This document shows, piece after piece, positions 7,794-19,134 of a DNA stretch of 64,000 nucleotides. Source of the stretch: Thermogemmatispora onikobensis (lineage in GTDB: Bacteria; Chloroflexota; Ktedonobacteria; Ktedonobacterales; Ktedonobacteraceae). The stretch is taken from assembly GCF_001748285.1 (NCBI RefSeq), contig NZ_BDGT01000010.1:1-64000 (forward strand), given 5' to 3'. A program made the position numbers and the translations under genes. Position 1 is the first letter of the stretch, and the number at the start of each line of letters is the position of its first letter. Under the pieces are notes generated by a model, which saw nothing but the letters and a program-made list of their open reading frames with translations, did no database searches and was not told where the DNA came from.

Positions 7794-8956
7794 ACCATCC
7801 AGAACCCCTGGATGAAAATGATGGTCAGGGTGGCCAGCAGCGGCGGGAAGATCAAGGTGATCGCCTGATGAAGGCGCGGATGCTCGCAGGCCAGGGCCGC
7901 CAGAGTCATGAAGCCCGGGAACATCTCCAGGACAAAGCGCTGGTTGGAGATCAGCGAGTCGGGCTGATTGATGCTTGGCTCTACCAAATAGAGCAGCAGC
8001 AGGGCCGCCATCCAGAGCGTATAGCTGAAGCGCAGCCGGCGCCAGCCCAGCACCGCCAGGACGATAAAGCCCAGGGTGGCACTGAGATCGAGTACGAGAT
8101 GGACCGAGAAGAGCGAACCGGCTGGCTGGAGCCAGAACAGCTCTACCAGGGCCTTCCAGATGCCTACCCAGGGCCAGACGGTGCGATGGGACCAGCGATA
8201 TTGTACTGCCGCGAAGCTGAACGGTGAATGGAAAAGATGCCAGCAATAGAGACAATAGATGGCGGTACCCAGCGGAATCAGCACGACTGGTAGTATCCGT
8301 AGGATGAACGAACGCCATTCACTCCGCTCGGGAAGCAGCCCGAGGCTGTTACGGGCAGCCCAGGCTTCCCAGAGGAAGGGCAATACAAGTAAGATACCCG
8401 GCGAGCGGGTCAGGGAGGCCAGCATGCCCAGCAGCCCAGCCAGCCACCAACGCCGCCGACGCATGGCCAGGAAGCAGCCGGTGACCAACAGCAAAAAGAG
8501 CGACTCATTATAGGCGGCAAAGAAGAAGAAGGCCGTTGGGAAAATACAAAGGTAGAGCAGCGTGCGACGGCTGACTTGATCGCCCAGGGCCTCACTGGCG
8601 AGCTGGTAGAGCGTGAATAAGGAGCCAAGCAGTGCCAGGTTGCTGATGAGCATGCCAAAGAAAAGATAGCCGTGGTTTCCCACAAGATGGGCCAAAATAG
8701 TAATTAAGAGAGGGAAAAGAGGAAAGAAAGCGCTGTCGAAAGGGCTACGATAGCCAAACTGAGCAATCTCAACGTAGTGGACGGCATCCCAGCGCTTCCA
8801 CGACATGGCCGCCGCCAGCAGGCTTACTGGTGGCGCGATGTACTGCGGTGGTCGCGGACCATTGAGCAGCGTGTAGGCAAAATAGGTGACCAGAAGAAGC
8901 GCGATGCGGCTGCAGATAAAGAGCCAGAGAATATCAGCGGTTGGCGCACGTTTCAT
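7790..8956 (-). CDS. Gpi18-like mannosyltransferase family membrane protein
   Basis: A 388-aa polytopic protein resembling bacterial relatives of the PIG-V/Gpi18 mannosyltransferases (COG5542 type). Signatures are WKRWDAVHYVEIAQFGY in the first outer loop (family W-D-x-x-x-Y-x-x-I-A-x-x-G-Y), FFPLFPLL, FPTAFFFFAAYNESLF and LTRSPGILL. It would transfer a sugar from a lipid carrier on the outer face of the membrane, for envelope glycan or protein glycosylation. ATG at 8956 has a GAGGAG site upstream. It heads the leftward glycosyltransferase-DedA block, and its last codons run into an 11-bp tandem repeat. Confidence 0.82.
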   Translation of the reverse strand: MKRAPTADILWLFICSRIALLLVTYFAYTLLNGPRPPQYIAPPVSLLAAAMSWKRWDAVHYVEIAQFGYRSPFDSAFFPLFPLLITILAHLVGNHGYLFFGMLISNLALLGSLFTLYQLASEALGDQVSRRTLLYLCIFPTAFFFFAAYNESLFLLLVTGCFLAMRRRRWWLAGLLGMLASLTRSPGILLVLPFLWEAWAARNSLGLLPERSEWRSFILRILPVVLIPLGTAIYCLYCWHLFHSPFSFAAVQYRWSHRTVWPWVGIWKALVELFWLQPAGSLFSVHLVLDLSATLGFIVLAVLGWRRLRFSYTLWMAALLLLYLVEPSINQPDSLISNQRFVLEMFPGFMTLAALACEHPRLHQAITLIFPPLLATLTIIFIQGFWMV

Positions 8957-9808
8957 AAGGAATACTCTTCGCTCCTCTTAGTATAGCAAATCAGATGGGA
9001 TCGCAGGGTCACTTTTCACTTGCTGTTGCTCTCCGCTTCCTTGCTGAGTTTCATTGGTATAACGAATAATCCATAGAGATGGTCAAAAAGGAAGCCTTTC
9101 TTCCCCTAGAGTCTGCGCTTACAACAATAAGCATTGAAAATGACATGCTTCTCTCGAAAGAGAGGAGGCTCACGGCGTTATCTTTTGTCATCTTTCACCC
9201 TGAATTCAGAATAATCCTTCATAAGGCTTGTGATCATCTGGGGTCCTGGTGCCAGCCATCAGGCCAGAACCTGGTCAACGCCAGCGGAATTCAGCCGGCA
9301 GCCTGGTCCAGCAGCAGAAGAGATCAGCCCCTGCGCAATGGTGGCCTTCCTGCTGAGCGTTCTCTCCTCCGAGCCGATGATTCCTCTTGCGGTCGCCGTC
9401 TCCCCGTGCTATAGTGTATTTAACATTCCCTTAACATAAGGTTAATATCCATTTAATACTTCCTCAGTCAGAGAACAGCCGGGCAGCGTCGCCCGAGTGG
9501 GCACAGCGGGCCAGGCCGTCAGGCCGACCTCAACGCTATCAGCAGCAGGCACAGCGAGCCTCCAGGGAAAGAGCACAGTAGCCGGACACAGCGACAAGAA
9601 CAAGGGCCAGCCTTGCGCCCACGTCACGAGAAGTACGTATCAAGCACACAGGTGAGTCAGCAGCAACCAACCCACCTTTCGATCTGGCAGCTTGTCTGTC
9701 TGCTCAAACTGGTACCGGTCAAAGTCGCTCCGCGCCTACAAGTGTGGAGCAGGGATCTGATTCCAGGTAATTATATACAACTCAACGGGAGGGGAGAGAG
9801 AGCAAGCA
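8957..9808. other. 852-bp intergenic region
   Basis: It lies between the divergent Gpi18-like gene and the phosphate transporter. The first about 280 bp are clearly more AT-rich than the surroundings. The only strong element is the PHO-box-like array at 9420-9459. A 111-codon open frame at 9079-9414 has no ribosome site and no recognisable protein features, and I do not call it a gene. Confidence 0.6.
9420..9459 (+). promoter_or_regulatory. PHO-box-like array upstream of the Na/Pi cotransporter
   Basis: Four 7-mers TTAACAT, TTAACAT, TTAATAT and TTAATAC begin at 9420, 9431, 9442 and 9453, spaced exactly 11 bp (one helical turn). This matches the architecture of PhoP boxes in Firmicutes (TTAACA-like repeats every 11 bp) and of PhoB boxes in general. 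The next rightward gene is a phosphate transporter, starting 350 bp downstream. Binding by a PhoB/PhoP response regulator under phosphate limitation is inferred. Confidence 0.75.
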
Positions 9809-11875: not shown

Positions 11876-12874
11876 ATGTTAAAGGCAAGCTTTGAGATTG
11901 AAGTTATCACCCCTCTCTTTCTGGCCGGGGCCAATCAGGCAGAGGCAGAGCTGCGCCCTCCTCCGTTCCGTGGAGCTATGCGCTACTGGTATCGGGCACT
12001 GATTGGCGGGATTACCGGAGGCGACCTGGATGAGGTGCGCCGGCGCGAGGCGCAGGTGTTCGGCGAGACCGAACACGGGTCACCGATACGTGTTCGTATC
12101 ACGGAGGTAAGGCCTCCAGAGCCCTCACCGCCTGACTTCCGCCAAGATCAGAGTAAGCTAGGCATCCGCTATCTCTTCTGGTCGACGGAAGGCTCCAGCA
12201 ATAATCGACCGCGCCGCCGATGCTGTCCGCCTGGGACGCGCTTCAGGCTTCTGCTCACAGCCCATGAGAAAGATCAGCGCTTTCTCCAAGAGGCGATCAT
12301 CTCCCTCTGGTTACTCACTCACTTCGGGGGACTGGGAGCACGTTCTCGCCGCTGCGCCGGTAGCCTGGCCCTTCGCTCTTTTGCTCTCTCCTTCTCCCCT
12401 GAAGTAGAGCTACCCCTATTGTCGCCAGACCAGGTCACAGATCTTGATGCGTTGGCTACCCTCCTTACACTGGGACTTCAAGAGATTAAGCGTTTTCTCA
12501 GTGTTAGTAAGCTATCCAGTGTTGAAAACGCCCGCTTTGATATCATTGCCCCAGGTAATTGCTATATAGCTCTCCTCTCTCCCCAAAATGGATGGCTAAG
12601 AGTAGATGAGGCGTTAGAGGCCGTCGGCAAGCAGTTGCAGCAATATCGCCGCTCTCTTCCAGCAGATGACCGCAGAGCATTCGGCCTGCCTTTACCTACG
12701 CTCAAGAAACGTCTGGCTTCGCCTCTTCATTTGCATATTGCAACTATTGATAGTTCTTATGTATGTGTTGCAACTATATTTAAAAGTAGATTACTACAGC
12801 AGAGACATTTCAATGTCATTAAAAATTTTATAAAAAATTTCCCAGAAGCAACTAAAAGGGAGATAGAGTTATGA
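11876..12874 (+). CDS. cmr1: CRISPR type III-B subunit Cmr1 (Cas7 family RAMP)
   Basis: 332 aa. Starts with the Cmr1 signature: FEIEVITPLFLAGANQ, then PPPFRGAMRYWYRAL (RAMP RNA-binding loop) and the glycine-rich GGLGARSRRCAG segment. In the Cmr complex this subunit sits at the end of the Cas7 backbone near the 3' part of the crRNA and helps bind target RNA. First gene of the operon; ATG at 11876 follows GAAGG by 10 nt. Its stop overlaps the cas10 start (ATGA). The last 40 codons are strikingly AT-rich (about 26% GC over 12721-12840 by my count), unlike the rest of the gene, although the protein still looks canonical there (ASPLHLHI...). Confidence 0.93.
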   Translation: MLKASFEIEVITPLFLAGANQAEAELRPPPFRGAMRYWYRALIGGITGGDLDEVRRREAQVFGETEHGSPIRVRITEVRPPEPSPPDFRQDQSKLGIRYLFWSTEGSSNNRPRRRCCPPGTRFRLLLTAHEKDQRFLQEAIISLWLLTHFGGLGARSRRCAGSLALRSFALSFSPEVELPLLSPDQVTDLDALATLLTLGLQEIKRFLSVSKLSSVENARFDIIAPGNCYIALLSPQNGWLRVDEALEAVGKQLQQYRRSLPADDRRAFGLPLPTLKKRLASPLHLHIATIDSSYVCVATIFKSRLLQQRHFNVIKNFIKNFPEATKREIEL

Positions 12875-15003
12875 CCCAGTCCTACATGCTCATCTTCGCC
12901 CTGGGGCCGGTGCAATCTTTCATCGCTCAGGCGCGCAAGTCGCGCGATCTCTGGCTAGGCAGCTTCCTGCTCTCCCACCTGATGGAGGCAGCTCTTGCCC
13001 AAGTGCCGCCGGGGGTGCTGGTTTTCCCGACCACGCCCAAGATCGACCGCTCGCGCTGGATACCCGATCTGCCCAATCGCTACGTCGCGGTCTTCTCTCC
13101 AACGGAGACCCAGCCCGACCCACTGGCAGCAGCCCGCCAAACGGCTGAGCAAAGCAAGCAAGCGATTTACAGGGCCTGGCAAGACATCTGCGGGGAGGTC
13201 TATCGGCAGCTCTTCGGCGGCAATGGCACTGATGGGCATGAGACGCTACTGCGCACTATCTGGGAACGTCAGATCGATCCCCAACGCCTCTTTGAGATCT
13301 ACTGGGCCATTGCCTCCAACACCGATGGTCAGGGCCGTCCGCTGGTATATGGGGACTGGTTCAAACGTACCTCCCAGGCGCTCGATGCCCGCAAGAGCCT
13401 GCGCGATTTCGCCGCTCAAGATGAACCCGGCGAGAAAAGCACGCTCTCTGGCGAGCGCGAGGCCCTGCATAGCCAGGGCGAGAGTCGGCAGGAGGTCAGA
13501 GCGTTTTGGATACAGGTAGCGGGCAAGCCGGGGGTTTCGGCTAAGGACCTTGCCTTAGATGGCTCTGAACGTCTGGACGCCATCGATACGGTGAAGCGCT
13601 TTGCTCTGCTCTCAAAGAGCTTCCTCAAAGGTCAAGGGGAGGGCAAGCCGGGGTTGGAACAGGGTCTGGATTTCCCTTCAACCAGCACGATGGCCGCCGC
13701 AGCCTTCATTGAGCGCCTGTTATCCCTGGTGCCTTCGTCAGAATCTCCAAGCAGCGAAATTCAGGAGGCAGTCAAGGGCTGGCAAGAGATTACTGCACTC
13801 CTGAAAAGGGAAAAGCCTCATCTGGCTCTTCCTTACCTGGAAAGGAAAGCTCAGCAGGCTAACCACTCCTGGCTCAAGGATGTTGACGGCGAGTGTGCTT
13901 TTGTCGAAACTTTCACCGCCCAGCGGCTGCGCACGAACTACCGCGCTCTGGTCGCATCGCAGCCGCGGCGCTTTCCCAGTGAATGGGTCATCGAGGAGCC
14001 AGGCTATCTCAGCAGGGCCCACGAAGTACTGAGAGAGCTTCACCGGCTCATTGGTGCGCCTAGTCCTTACTACGCCTTGCTACAGATGGATGGCGACCAG
14101 ATGGGCACCCTCATTGGCGAGGTCCAGAGCCAGGCTGATCACCGTGCCATCAGTGGAGCGCTCTCGACCTTTGCGCGCGAGCATGTTCCCGGCATCGTCG
14201 AGGATGAGCGTCCCGGCAAACTAATCTACGCCGGCGGCGATGACGTGCTGGCTTTGGCACCACTGGCGCAGATGTTCTCTCTCGCCTCAGCCCTGCAGCA
14301 GAACTATCGCGAGATCGTGGGGCCGAGCATACAAACGGCCTCCAACGGGACAAGAACGGCTACGGTCAGTATGGGCATCGCCATCGCTCATCATCTGATG
14401 CCGCTGACGCTGGTACGCCGGATGGCACGTGAGGCTGAGGAACAGGCTAAACAGCGCTATGGCCGCAATGCCCTGGTGGTGACGATTCTCTGGCGCTCCG
14501 GCAATACGCTCTCCGCCGGCTGCCGCTGGGAATATCCTTTTTCGGAGAGTGGCTGGCTGACTATGCTCCCGCTGCAAATCTTCCAACATGTAGTAAACCT
14601 TTTTGCAAGCAATACGCTGTCGCCACGCTGCCTGGAGATTCTCAAAAGGGAGCTGCCGGGGTTAGAGGGCTTGCCACAGGAGGCGCGCTGCAGTGAGATC
14701 GCGCGTGTACTGAAACGGCAATGGAACACTACCGCCCTTCAGTCCGACAAGAAGCCATCGCAGAGCCTGGCCCACGACAAGACACCGCGGGACACTGGCA
14801 ACTCCGAATCTTCCACCAGGCTCATGCCTTACGCCCTGGCCTATGCCCTGGTCCGTCTCGCAGCTCTCATGGAAAAGAGTCAGCCTGGAGCCTTCTCCGG
14901 CCCCGACAACTCTGGCCTGCAGGAGGTCCTGAACTGGCTGCAGATTCTGGCTTTTCTCGCAAGGGAGGCAGGAGACAGTGTATCTTTTCATCGAGCCACA
15001 TGA
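12871..15003 (+). CDS. cmr2: CRISPR type III-B Cas10 (Cmr2), GGDD present, HD domain absent
   Basis: 710 aa. Large subunit of the Cmr effector. It carries a Palm/cyclase domain with the metal motif GGDD at residues 455-458 (YAGGDDVLAL), expected to make cyclic oligoadenylate when target RNA is bound. The protein opens directly with FALGPVQSFIAQARKSRDLW, the segment that in full-length Cmr2 follows the N-terminal HD nuclease domain. No HD domain is present and none is encoded upstream, so target-activated ssDNA cleavage is not expected. Translation is coupled to cmr1 by an ATGA overlap, with GGGAG upstream. It overlaps cmr3 by 26 bp. Confidence 0.93.
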   Translation: MTQSYMLIFALGPVQSFIAQARKSRDLWLGSFLLSHLMEAALAQVPPGVLVFPTTPKIDRSRWIPDLPNRYVAVFSPTETQPDPLAAARQTAEQSKQAIYRAWQDICGEVYRQLFGGNGTDGHETLLRTIWERQIDPQRLFEIYWAIASNTDGQGRPLVYGDWFKRTSQALDARKSLRDFAAQDEPGEKSTLSGEREALHSQGESRQEVRAFWIQVAGKPGVSAKDLALDGSERLDAIDTVKRFALLSKSFLKGQGEGKPGLEQGLDFPSTSTMAAAAFIERLLSLVPSSESPSSEIQEAVKGWQEITALLKREKPHLALPYLERKAQQANHSWLKDVDGECAFVETFTAQRLRTNYRALVASQPRRFPSEWVIEEPGYLSRAHEVLRELHRLIGAPSPYYALLQMDGDQMGTLIGEVQSQADHRAISGALSTFAREHVPGIVEDERPGKLIYAGGDDVLALAPLAQMFSLASALQQNYREIVGPSIQTASNGTRTATVSMGIAIAHHLMPLTLVRRMAREAEEQAKQRYGRNALVVTILWRSGNTLSAGCRWEYPFSESGWLTMLPLQIFQHVVNLFASNTLSPRCLEILKRELPGLEGLPQEARCSEIARVLKRQWNTTALQSDKKPSQSLAHDKTPRDTGNSESSTRLMPYALAYALVRLAALMEKSQPGAFSGPDNSGLQEVLNWLQILAFLAREAGDSVSFHRAT

Positions 15004-16171
15004 GACGCTCCTCTTTCGCAGTGGGCGCCCCTTCGATGCCGGCGAGGTCAACTTTGCCGAATCGCTCTTCCCCCCCACTCCTGAAACCTTACAGGGGTCG
15101 CTGCGGGAGCTGATCGCTCGCCACTGGGACCAGCGCAAGAGCCTGCCCGAGCTCCTGCGTGATCCGGCCCTGACAGCCCTGATCGGTAACCAGACAGGCT
15201 ATGGTCGCCTGCGCATCAGGCTGATCACGCTCGCGCGCCGTCAGAAGGCGCAGAACGGCGCTCAGCGCTTTGAGCTGCTCTATCCCATGCCGGCCCACTT
15301 GCTGCGCGCACCGCACCAGCCAGGCTCCCCCTCCAAACGCCTGCTCCGCCTGAAACCGGCCTCGCCCGCTGGCCTCTGGACCAATCTCCCTCAAGGGCAG
15401 CAGCTACTTTATCCCGAAGGCCAAGAGCAGGCGCAACCGCTTGGCAAGGGGAGCAAGCTGCGAGGCTGGCTGACAGCAGAAGGATTAGAGGCAGCCTTGC
15501 GCTCCAACACTGAGATGAGCGAGACTATGATCATCTCCAACAGCGAGATCTACGAGGAAGAGCCACGCACGGGAATCGCTCGCCAGGAGCGCACGCGTAC
15601 GACAGAGGAGGGTATGCTTTATACCATCTACACTGTGCGCCTGCGACCCAGCTATGGCTTTCTTGTCGATCTGCGCCTGGCTCAGACAGCCGACCCTCTC
15701 AGCGATCAGTTGCTACCTGATGAGCAAACCGCTTTGCTCTTGCGCCTGCCCGCGCCCCCGACGCACTTCGCCCATACCCTGGGCGGCGAGAGCCGTCCTG
15801 TGACCGTCTGGCTGATTGATCCCCAGGCTACACCGGTGCGGGCCGCCGCGCCTCAGACGCCAGATCACCTCAGCGGGCAGCGGCTCCTGCTTTATCTGGC
15901 CACCCCAGCGATCTTCAGAAAGGGCTGGCAACCTGAGCGCTGGCCCGCAGATCTCGGCGCACCTATTGCTGCGGCTATCAGTGGCTACCAGTGGATTGGC
16001 GGATGGCAGATGAACCCCAGTCATCACGGTGGTCAGAGCAAAACAGCCCGGCGCTGCGTTCCTGCAGGAAGCGTCTACTTTTTTGACAAGAAAACAGATA
16101 GAGATCTCTACCAGCTAACAGATATCGGCAAAGAAATAGGCTATGGTATGATCCTTAAAGGAGTCTGGTGA
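14978..16171 (+). CDS. cmr3: CRISPR type III-B subunit Cmr3 (Cas5 family RAMP)
   Basis: 397 aa. N-terminus YLFIEPHETLLFRSGRPFDAGEVNFAESLFPPTPETLQGSLREL is the Cmr3 signature (Cas5-like RAMP). Cmr3 caps the complex at the 5' repeat-derived handle of the crRNA and contacts Cas10. The start is GTG at 14978 inside the cas10 end, with GGGAGG about 9 nt upstream. A later DKKTDRDLYQLTDIGKEIGYGMILKG segment is the usual glycine-rich C-terminus. The cmr4 ATG comes 1 nt after its stop. Confidence 0.93.
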   Translation: MYLFIEPHETLLFRSGRPFDAGEVNFAESLFPPTPETLQGSLRELIARHWDQRKSLPELLRDPALTALIGNQTGYGRLRIRLITLARRQKAQNGAQRFELLYPMPAHLLRAPHQPGSPSKRLLRLKPASPAGLWTNLPQGQQLLYPEGQEQAQPLGKGSKLRGWLTAEGLEAALRSNTEMSETMIISNSEIYEEEPRTGIARQERTRTTEEGMLYTIYTVRLRPSYGFLVDLRLAQTADPLSDQLLPDEQTALLLRLPAPPTHFAHTLGGESRPVTVWLIDPQATPVRAAAPQTPDHLSGQRLLLYLATPAIFRKGWQPERWPADLGAPIAAAISGYQWIGGWQMNPSHHGGQSKTARRCVPAGSVYFFDKKTDRDLYQLTDIGKEIGYGMILKGVW

Positions 16172-16172
16172 C

Positions 16173-17141
16173 ATGATTACAGCGACGAGCATGATGTACA
16201 TCTACACAGAAACGTCCTTGCACGCCGGTGTAGGCAGTGGCCTGAGCAGTATCGAGTTGCCGATCCAGCGCGAGCGCCATACCCAGTATCCCATGATCCA
16301 GGGCAGCAGCATCAAAGGGAAACTGCGCGCGTTGATCGTCGATCAGTGCGGCAACAAGTCCGATAGGCGGGTCGAGGCGCTTTTTGGCCACGAGCGCGAA
16401 ACTCAAGAGACCGACCGGCTTCACGCTGGAGCCTTGATTGTCGGAGATGCCCGCATCCTGCTCTTCCCTGTGCGTTCTCTCCGGGGAGTTTTCGCTTATA
16501 CTACCTCTCTTGATGTCCTGGAGCGCTTTCGAAAGGATCTCACCCACATCCACCAGGAGCAGACTTTTCCGCAGTTGCCGCCGGAGCGACCGACGAACGG
16601 CCAGGCGCTGGTTACTGAGGATTCAGAGGTGATCACTTCCGAGGAGAAGTCAGGCCTGCTGCTGGAAGAGTTCAGTTTCGAGGTCAGCAAGAACCAGCAG
16701 GTGACCAGTGTGGCGCACTGGCTGGCGGAGCACGCCCTCCCGCTTGACGGCTACTGGGCCGGCAAGCTGCGGTCTTCGCTGGTCGTCCTCTCCGATGACG
16801 ATTTCCGCGACTTCGCCCTCTACTCAACCGAGCTGATCACGCGCATCGCCCTTAATCAGAGCACGAAGACGGTCGAAGAGCGCGCCCTCTGGACAGAGGA
16901 ACATCTGCCTGCAGATACCCTGCTCTACGCTCCTATCTACGCGACCAACGAGCGACGTCCCAGCGAGCAGGGCCAACAGCCGCGTCATGGCCTGGAACTG
17001 CTCCAAGAGGCTCAGACACTCAGCCAGCAGGCCGGCCCCTACCTGCAGCTCGGTGGCGACGAGACAGTAGGGCGTGGCTTCGTCAAGGTGCGCTGGAGTC
17101 CTGCAGTTCCACTCACCAGCACCACCACCGGTAAGCCCTAA
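16173..17141 (+). CDS. cmr4: CRISPR type III-B backbone nuclease subunit Cmr4 (Cas7)
   Basis: 322 aa. Cmr4 is the repeated Cas7 backbone subunit whose loop aspartate cuts target RNA every 6 nt. The defining segment is present (LHAGVGSGLSS, LPIQRERHTQYPMIQGSSIKGKLRAL, then AGALIVGDARILLFPVRSLRGVFAYTT). In characterised Cmr4 the residue before x-PIQRE is the catalytic Asp (D26 in Pyrococcus furiosus); here that position is Glu28 (IELPIQRE). Slicing may be altered. Start at 16173, directly after the cmr3 stop, with AAGGAG upstream. Confidence 0.93.
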   Translation: MITATSMMYIYTETSLHAGVGSGLSSIELPIQRERHTQYPMIQGSSIKGKLRALIVDQCGNKSDRRVEALFGHERETQETDRLHAGALIVGDARILLFPVRSLRGVFAYTTSLDVLERFRKDLTHIHQEQTFPQLPPERPTNGQALVTEDSEVITSEEKSGLLLEEFSFEVSKNQQVTSVAHWLAEHALPLDGYWAGKLRSSLVVLSDDDFRDFALYSTELITRIALNQSTKTVEERALWTEEHLPADTLLYAPIYATNERRPSEQGQQPRHGLELLQEAQTLSQQAGPYLQLGGDETVGRGFVKVRWSPAVPLTSTTTGKP

Positions 17142-17199
17142 ACTATCGTCCCTTTGTTAGAAAGGATGAAAAAAATAACAGATATAACAGGTGAATCCT

Positions 17200-17772
17200 A
17201 TGATAGAAGAGAAAAAACCCATACGACGACTGCTGGAACAAGAGCGGGGCAAGTTTGCCTGGAACTGCATTCAAGAGATAAAGAAGCTCCCCTCAGCCGA
17301 GCTGCAGGCCGAATATCGCACACGGGCCTTAACCTTTAACCAGATGGTGCAGATCAACGGCCTGGGGGCCACCCTCGGCTTTCTCAGAGCAAAAGCGATT
17401 GAAGAGAAGAAGACGAAGACAGCTGATCAGAAGGCATCTCCAGGCCAGCCTTCGGCGAAGAGCACTCAGCAAGATCAACAAAGACAGCTAAAATCTTATG
17501 GTTACCTGTTGAAGCATCTTACCGAGTGGATGGCCAGGCGTAGGTTTATTCCCCCCATCGAAAAGAAGAGCGAGAGGTGGGAGGACGAAACGCAAGGTGA
17601 CCAGAACAAGCAAGTGGACGCTCTCCTGCTCTGGATCATTCAGGAGGCCAGCAGCAACGATTACCGCCGGGCAACAACCGAGTGTCTGGCCTTCGGCGAC
17701 TGGTTGCGCCGCTTCGCCGAGGCTGAGCTGGAGAAAGAGGAGAACAAGGAGTCTGCCAAGTCCGGGCAGTAG
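17200..17772 (+). CDS. cmr5: CRISPR type III-B small subunit Cmr5 (Cas11)
   Basis: About 190 aa, all-helical small subunit that lines the inner side of the Cmr backbone. The family core is visible: RRLLEQERGKFAWNCIQEI at the N-terminus, then RALTFNQMVQINGLGATLGFLRAK and LLKHLTEWMARRRF with a C-terminal helical part. It is longer than typical Cmr5 (about 120-150 aa) because of a Lys/Gln-rich insertion (residues about 75-105). ATG at 17200 has AGGTG 5-6 nt upstream and is preferred over the in-frame GTG at 17191. 58 bp after cmr4 and 18 bp before cmr6. Confidence 0.9.
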   Translation: MIEEKKPIRRLLEQERGKFAWNCIQEIKKLPSAELQAEYRTRALTFNQMVQINGLGATLGFLRAKAIEEKKTKTADQKASPGQPSAKSTQQDQQRQLKSYGYLLKHLTEWMARRRFIPPIEKKSERWEDETQGDQNKQVDALLLWIIQEASSNDYRRATTECLAFGDWLRRFAEAELEKEENKESAKSGQ

Positions 17773-17790: not shown

Positions 17791-19134
17791 ATGAATAACT
17801 CACAGCACCGAGAATCAGGCCACGCGAGAAGGCAACAGCATCCCCCGAGAGGCCCCAGCAACCGCGATAGCCACACAACAGCGCAGGGCAAGACATCGCT
17901 CTATCCATTGCCGCCGCGAGCCACAGAGTTGCTCAAAGCAGCGCTCCACAAAGAGAAAGTAGGATCAGGCTCGTCGCAGGAAGCCGGAGCCAATCCTCCC
18001 TCTCAGAAAGGGAAGCCCGGCTCGCCCCAGCAAGATCAGTCCCACTCACAGAGGAGAGACTACCCCGTGCTAGCCTGCCCCAACCTGGGACTGCAGCTTC
18101 ACCGCTACATTCCCAGCGCGGTTCTTCAGTTCTCGCTGGGCTCCGATAGCAAAGCGTTCCCGGCGGCGCGCCAGCAGTGGCTGCAGGCCCTGGCCCAAGG
18201 CTACCAACCCGACCAGGCCCTCGCCACAGGCGCGTACCAGCGCTGGCAGGCCTTCACCCGCGCCCTGAACGCCCTTCATTTCAAGGCCGAGATCGACTGG
18301 CGCCTGGTGGTTGGCCTGGGCGGTAACTCTGTGCTGGAGACCGACCTGACCCTGCACCGCAACTATAGTCTGCCCATTATCCCCGGCAGTGCCCTTAAAG
18401 GTCTGACGCGCAACTACGCCACTCAAGAGGACTGGGAAGTCGCCATCCCCGACGAGCAAGGCCAGCCTCGGCAGAGAAAGAAAGCGGAAGCTGACCTGAA
18501 CCGCCTTTTCGGCACCCTCGATCAGGCCGGCAGCGTCATCTTTTTCGACGCCATTCCACTCGAAGGACAGGCCAGGCTGGAACTAGACGTCATGACGCCC
18601 CACTATCCCGACTATTATCAGAAGAACAGGCCGCCCAGTAACGATCAATCCCCAGTGCCGATCACCTTTCTCACCGTGGCCAAGACTACCTTTGCCTTCG
18701 CCATCGCCCCACGTACTCCCACACCTGGCGACCGCGCCGATACCGTCCTCGCTCTGGCCCTGCTCAAGCAGGCTCTGGCGGACTACGGCATCGGCGGCAA
18801 GACCAGCGCCGGCTACGGCTACTTCCATCAGGCAGCCGAGTCTCCTGTCGCCAACAACGCTCCCCTCGCAGGGCGGGAAGAGGAAGGCGAGGGCATGGAG
18901 GAAGCGCGGGCCCAAGCCAGGGAACTGGCAGCCCTCACCCCCGAACAGCTTCAACGGAAAGGAAGCCTGGAGCTTCTGAGCACTTTGAGGAAAATGCGCT
19001 CGCCCGCCGCAAAACGCCTGCTGGCCCGAGAGATCGAAAAGATCTACCGTCAGAAAGGAGTCGATCTTCAGAAAAAATCAGAATTCTTCAAACAAATAGA
19101 ACAAATTATACAAGAGAAGGATATCCACCAATGA
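17791..19134 (+). CDS. cmr6: CRISPR type III-B subunit Cmr6 (Cas7 family RAMP)
   Basis: 447 aa. Contains the Cmr6 core: RLVVGLGGNSVLETDLTLHRNYSLPIIPGSALKGLTRNYA (RAMP loop with SALKG), LFGTLDQAGSVIFFDAIP, and the late glycine-rich GIGGKTSAGYGYF. Cmr6 sits beside Cmr1 at the head of the complex. The first about 90 residues are a Gln/Ser/Pro-rich extension not usual for the family, and the last about 80 are charged and helical. A GGAG-type site precedes the ATG. Its stop (TGA 19132-19134) overlaps the ATG of a 46-codon frame. Confidence 0.92.
   Translation: MNNSQHRESGHARRQQHPPRGPSNRDSHTTAQGKTSLYPLPPRATELLKAALHKEKVGSGSSQEAGANPPSQKGKPGSPQQDQSHSQRRDYPVLACPNLGLQLHRYIPSAVLQFSLGSDSKAFPAARQQWLQALAQGYQPDQALATGAYQRWQAFTRALNALHFKAEIDWRLVVGLGGNSVLETDLTLHRNYSLPIIPGSALKGLTRNYATQEDWEVAIPDEQGQPRQRKKAEADLNRLFGTLDQAGSVIFFDAIPLEGQARLELDVMTPHYPDYYQKNRPPSNDQSPVPITFLTVAKTTFAFAIAPRTPTPGDRADTVLALALLKQALADYGIGGKTSAGYGYFHQAAESPVANNAPLAGREEEGEGMEEARAQARELAALTPEQLQRKGSLELLSTLRKMRSPAAKRLLAREIEKIYRQKGVDLQKKSEFFKQIEQIIQEKDIHQ

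Follow-up and report, generated by a model that had tools for sequence, protein, structure and literature searches.

The Cmr4 protein of Thermogemmatispora onikobensis, the slicer subunit of a type III-B CRISPR system, carries glutamate in place of the aspartate that cuts the target RNA in characterised Cmr4s, and this change is common to its whole genus. The region analysed here, called the window below, is a stretch of 64,000 nucleotides of contig NZ_BDGT01000010.1. We see about an even chance that the change is a conservative replacement maintained by selection, in which case a signalling complex would have a slicer of reduced speed. The evidence, drawn from sequences, suits a weakened but functional site no less than an inactive one.

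The gene cmr4 (16173–17141, forward strand) is a single open frame of 322 codons. Its product matches TIGR02580 with 238.9 bits for a cut-off of 87, over positions 2–283 of the 283 of the profile, and the closest solved structures are Cmr4 chains (9arw and 4rdp/4w8w/4wnz, E about 1e-50). It belongs to a complete cmr1–6 operon whose other genes, co-directional on the forward strand, are cmr1 (11876–12874; TIGR01894, 67.9 bits), cas10/cmr2 (12871–15003; TIGR02577, 174 bits, with PF12469 and PF22335), cmr3 (14978–16171, its start codon putative; TIGR01888, 100.8 bits), cmr5 (17191–17772; TIGR01881, 76.8 bits) and cmr6 (17791–19134; TIGR01898, 162.6 bits); all six proteins score above the curated cut-offs. 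By these defining genetic features the operon is classed as type III-B; the HD domain of Cas10 and the slicer Asp, neither of which is universal in this subtype, were both looked for and neither was found. The arrangement varies in two members of the genus: in Thermogemmatispora HOG59 a gene resembling tnpB stands on the opposite strand between cmr3 and cmr4 (L060 5388–6284), and in T. tikiterensis, alone among the genus members seen, cas6 immediately follows cmr6 (L062 5263–6288).

The first-pass annotation had proposed that Glu28 replaces the catalytic Asp of Cmr4 (D26 in P. furiosus), that the flanking family residues are intact and that the change is a specific one. All three claims stand, and the change is also rare, fixed in the genus and under purifying selection, with the companion residues retained. 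Located by alignment, by pattern match and in six genomes of the genus, the Glu28 codon (GAG, 16254–16256, forward strand) falls on D26 of P. furiosus Cmr4 within a stretch that is free of gaps from His17 to Lys48 and takes in H17, P30, R33, E34 and K48. His17 (16221–16223, forward strand), an invariant residue of the slicer site, corresponds to H15 and Lys48 to K46, while the slicer-site acids Glu242-Glu243 (16896–16901, forward strand), which correspond to E227-E228, are intact. The same alignment places no Asp of the Thermogemmatispora protein in the D26 column, nor does the catalytic Asp turn up at another place in it. H17, P30, R33, E34, K48, W240, E242 and E243 are constant in the six Thermogemmatispora proteins and in three Glu-bearing Cmr4s found sporadically elsewhere. 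One nuance concerns the position of P. furiosus Y229, occupied by His244: a second catalytic loss at this place was ruled out, as the nearest Asp relatives also have His and the site is variable in the family, the sporadic Glu cases included. Because six separately assembled genomes of the genus share GAG at codon 28, a sequencing error was ruled out too. We also discarded a new Asp in Cmr6 as a compensation: the residue of Cmr6 that matches the slicer residue of Cmr4 is indeed Asp (VLETDLTLHR), and most of the nearest Asp relatives share it.

Across the Cmr4 families, Glu at this position is very rare outside Thermogemmatispora. In a class-level survey of 47 genomes it was found in six of the six Thermogemmatispora, and Asp in all the other Cmr4s covering the site; the nearest relatives of the same family carry Asp. 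Wider, 84,980 species genomes were scanned with a pattern built on one form of the motif—once Asp is admitted too, it recovers 37 of about 40 full-length Cmr4 loci, the total being our own count—and only Glu was counted. Nine matches were obtained: five Thermogemmatispora, one chance match and three real Cmr4s, from Cohnella faecalis, a deltaproteobacterial MAG and a Chthonomonadaceae MAG, which belong to separate lineages. The chance match, in Stenomitos (L051), lies inside a frame of 55 residues and was rejected as a Glu Cmr4. The viral contigs gave no match to the Glu-motif pattern, and the plasmid records named (Thermomicrobium, Thermus, Runella, Vibrio, Paenibacillus) have Asp in all cases. 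Since Cmr4 occurs in roughly one sixth of the genomes of three sampled phyla (above cut-off in 70 of 400 for the phylum of the window, 69 of 398 for that of Cohnella and 56 of 386 for the cyanobacterial one of Stenomitos), the eight Glu cases make up a very small fraction of Cmr4s overall.

A set of 150 Cmr4-like proteins, from loci sampled by score so that very divergent Cmr4s are under-represented, has Asp at the site in 111 rows, Glu in 11 and an empty position in 28. The Glu rows comprise the six Thermogemmatispora, Cohnella, the deltaproteobacterium, the Chthonomonad (counted twice) and a divergent Cas7; the empty ones are a fragment and 27 cyanobacterial proteins. None of the 150 has Asn, Gly, Ala, His, Tyr or Val there; among the Asp-type Cmr4s seen, the only replacement is the acidic one, Glu. 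As to the divergent Cas7-like protein (L127, G289:C73:5100-7700, from the phylum of the window), it scores above the Cmr4 cut-off and its Glu, at the slicer column, stands in a Csm3-like context (RVELTIVRDP).

On a quick tree of Cmr4, built with the slicer column removed and in which long branches meet, though not near the Thermogemmatispora clade, Glu requires five separate changes. The six Thermogemmatispora proteins form a clade (support 100) inside another (support 99) whose five other members all have Asp. Because the Glu clade is nested among Asp members, Asp is likely the ancestral state, and the simplest history has Glu arising from Asp on the genus stem. The 27 cyanobacterial Cmr4s (L170–L196) also form one clade (support 100): their motif reads GNLLGIARE, with no acid at the slicer position, and Gly, Arg and Arg occupy the positions of P28, K46 and W225. 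The III-Bv system that Synechocystis 6803 carries on pSYSA (L200 6001–6780), whose Cas10 has both an HD motif and GGDD, falls within this clade. Thermogemmatispora Cmr4 stands outside the cyanobacterial group, in a separate clade, and has kept P, K, W and an acid. The cyanobacterial clade is the stronger natural case of a Cmr4 without slicer acid, and Asp at the D26 position is no strict requirement of Cmr4, III-Bv also doing without it.

In Cas10, Cmr2_N begins at residue 7 and the second palm domain, PF22335, is matched with 120 bits. The GGDD cyclase motif (residues 455–458, RPGKLIYAGGDDVLALAPLA, 14233–14244, forward strand) is intact in the context IYAGGDDVLA, and is intact as well in Cas10 of the sporadic Glu loci. 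No match to an HD family was found for Cas10 in the window or in those loci, and by inspection the HD domain is absent also from Cas10 of the nearest relatives. Since Cas10 keeps GGDD with no HD detected, its predicted output is cyclic-oligoadenylate signalling without HD-type DNA cutting. This agrees, at the level of sequence, with the earlier suggestion that the complex signals through Cas10; the poor cutting of RNA proposed along with it is a candidate effect of Glu28.

The cmr operons of the Asp relatives are flanked by sets, varying from one to another, of CARF-HTH (NE0113), Card1-like CARF-PDDEXK, AAA-Csx3, Csx15 and CARF7 genes. None of these signalling genes was found beside cmr in Thermogemmatispora, an absence that is provisional in draft genomes; where contigs show the neighbourhood, the operon lies between the same two non-defence genes, whose products resemble a Na/phosphate cotransporter and an aldehyde dehydrogenase. 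In T. carboxidivorans, T. aurantia and T. tikiterensis, Card1-like and CARF-HTH genes adjoin each other far from cmr. The module of T. carboxidivorans (L076 7996–11785, its Card1-like gene at 8495–9484) adds Csx15-like and AAA-Csx3-like genes, and the two other species match this stretch along its length. In the genome of the window the flanks of this orphan-module site are present, with about 1.5 kb holding mCpol and CARF-TM genes there instead of the module (L090 5553–6742; G000:C2, about 71.5–72.7 kb). The mCpol product matches PF18182 with 105 bits, and what looks like a frameshift, at a run of T, divides the CARF-TM gene. The site appears as one where a second-messenger module has been swapped for another; mCpol, the minimal CRISPR polymerase, is reportedly the synthase of the Panoptes system. 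No member of the CARF families searched, a set that leaves aside HEPN-type Csx1/Csm6, was found in the genome of the window, a provisional result on a draft assembly.

A SAVED gene is present in six of the six genomes of the genus. That of the window's genome encodes a TIR-SAVED protein (L063 435–2204) and adjoins a second type III operon, whose Cas10 has GGDD; gene and operon together span L063 435–10939 (G000:C8). One Cas7 of this operon has the canonical Asp motif, VDRTVARD (L063 8368–9180); in several of the Cas7-like subunits the slicer position seems to be taken by Lys, e.g. SSSKSPIVL. Any messenger that the Cmr-associated Cas10 makes would have to work through effectors encoded at other loci. 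As for the crRNA, each genome of the genus has two to four cas6 genes, placed at three sites in the genome of the window, and another contig of the latter, C59, bears a CRISPR array of 26 copies with a repeat ending GGGATTGAAAG. It is plausible that the Cmr complex is loaded with crRNA in trans.

Selection on the operon was estimated by pairwise Nei-Gojobori comparison between genus members, a simple estimate over pairs that are not independent: the mean dN/dS is 0.205 for cmr4, the lowest of the operon, then 0.23 for cmr3, 0.29 for cmr5, 0.34 for cmr2, 0.43 for cmr1 and 0.45 for cmr6. The synonymous divergence of cmr4 from the window reaches about 0.67, and the codons directly after that of Glu28 show silent variation only within the genus. 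On the genus stem, 12 of 288 comparable columns changed and were fixed, D28E being the sole one at a slicer-site residue. Glu28 is, on this pattern of substitutions, a replacement kept under selection with no decay. A decaying operon, in which Glu28 would be a by-product of lost function, could be read from the TnpB-like insertion of the HOG59 MAG and from the faster evolution of cmr1 and cmr6. We consider it most improbable: none of the six cmr frames is interrupted in the window or in those members of the genus whose contigs span the operon, the mean dN/dS stays at 0.2–0.45 across all six genes, and the genome of the window has its Cas6 genes and its 26-copy array.

The reading that we favour is that Asp became Glu in Cmr4 on the genus stem, that Glu was then retained by selection, and that slicing is probably slower. 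In a related type III complex the slicer Asp coordinates Mg2+ at the scissile phosphate (PMC11026444); Glu28 keeps the carboxylate, one methylene further out, and would still bind the metal. The complex most likely assembles on crRNA, binds the target RNA and cleaves it every 6 nt, presumably at a lower rate, or with a different preference for metal or temperature. With a slower cutting, the target-bound Cas10 would make cyclic oligoadenylate longer by means of its GGDD motif and, as there is no HD nuclease, this signal would be the main predicted output. A working site is favoured because every replacement of Asp seen in Asp-type Cmr4s brings in an acid, because the companion residues are kept, and because the acid-free clade has changed the equivalents of P28, K46 and W225 too. 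It is favoured also because a dead slicer with a live Cas10 is toxic, yet Glu loci keep effectors: CARF effectors adjoin those of the deltaproteobacterium and the Chthonomonad, and SAVED or CARF effectors persist in Thermogemmatispora. This toxicity was described in S. islandicus (PMC9368842), and in P. furiosus the slicer-dead mutant was unobtainable in the wild type, and was obtained only with the DNase and Csx1 disabled (PMC7192623).

Glu28 might rather abolish slicing and turn the complex into a natural binding and signalling device which holds its target RNA uncut: nothing but dissociation, or clearance of the messenger, would end the Cas10 signal, and Glu would preserve the structure of the loop, not the catalysis. 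Asn or Ala at the slicer site does abolish cutting, with the D26N and D27A complexes still assembled (PMC7192623, PMC9368842), and the acid-free Cmr4s of cyanobacteria, III-Bv of Synechocystis 6803 included, indicate that such complexes can persist. Toxicity would be softened by the lack of an HD domain and of local effectors; the loss of the latter, together with the absence of the searched CARF families from the genome of the window, would make a dead slicer tolerable there, and the VDRTVARD Cas7 of the second operon could supply slicing. We nevertheless hold a dead site for possible but rather doubtful, as the companion residues have not drifted, unlike those of the acid-free clade, as the Asp of Asp-type Cmr4s is replaced by an acid only, and as CARF effectors stand next to two of the sporadic Glu loci. 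At the opposite, the active site could have adjusted so that Glu28 is neutral, with a cutting equal to that of the Asp enzyme at growth temperature. The unchanged charge, the lack of drift at the other slicer-site residues and the several independent origins of Glu agree with neutrality, but eight real Glu cases in 84,980 species genomes make it unlikely: a neutral exchange between Asp and Glu would be common, and because Glu is so rare it does not seem freely exchangeable with Asp. Against the attenuated slicer, an Asp-to-Glu change at a metal site often removes most of the activity, and the rarity of Glu, the lost local effectors, the absence of the searched CARF families and the Asp-bearing Cas7 of the second operon count against it too.

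By the usual view, type III signalling is brought to an end by the cleavage of the target, which acts as its timer. We tentatively suggest, as a minority view among those weighed here, that a Cmr with little or no slicing serves the whole genus as a long-lasting RNA sensor, the Cas10 signal acting in trans on distant effectors such as TIR-SAVED or the orphan Card1-like module, and the off-switch having moved from the cleavage of the target to the removal of the messenger. A slicer residue altered over a whole genus offers a natural and stable variant for testing the timer idea, by a comparison at one residue. Together, Thermogemmatispora and the acid-free cyanobacterial clade suggest that natural systems can adjust slicing or dispense with it.

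A text search of the literature, whose scope left out the primary papers on the P. furiosus slicer, returned no report of a natural Glu, D26E or D33E. Among the known systems, the III-B complex of P. furiosus resembles that of Thermogemmatispora by its six subunits, its GGDD Cas10, a Cmr4 that aligns over its full length and the equivalents of H15, K46, W225, E227 and E228; it differs by Asp26, where Thermogemmatispora has Glu, and by an active HD DNase in Cas10 and a Csx1 effector (PMC7192623). VmeCmr of Vibrio metoecus is reportedly likewise a III-B complex with an HD-less Cas10 acting via cyclic oligoadenylate, but its effector is NucC (PMC8682760). The Asp operons of the same family (L066–L070) are nearer: they share the gene order and an HD-less GGDD Cas10 and have the closest Cmr4s, but their slicer has Asp and their flanks carry CARF-HTH, Card1-like, AAA-Csx3 and Csx15 genes. 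The III-Bv system of Synechocystis 6803 (L200) shares with Thermogemmatispora a natural departure from the slicer Asp and a GGDD Cas10, but it has no acid at this place, further changes in the slicer site and an HD motif in Cas10, and it belongs to a separate clade.
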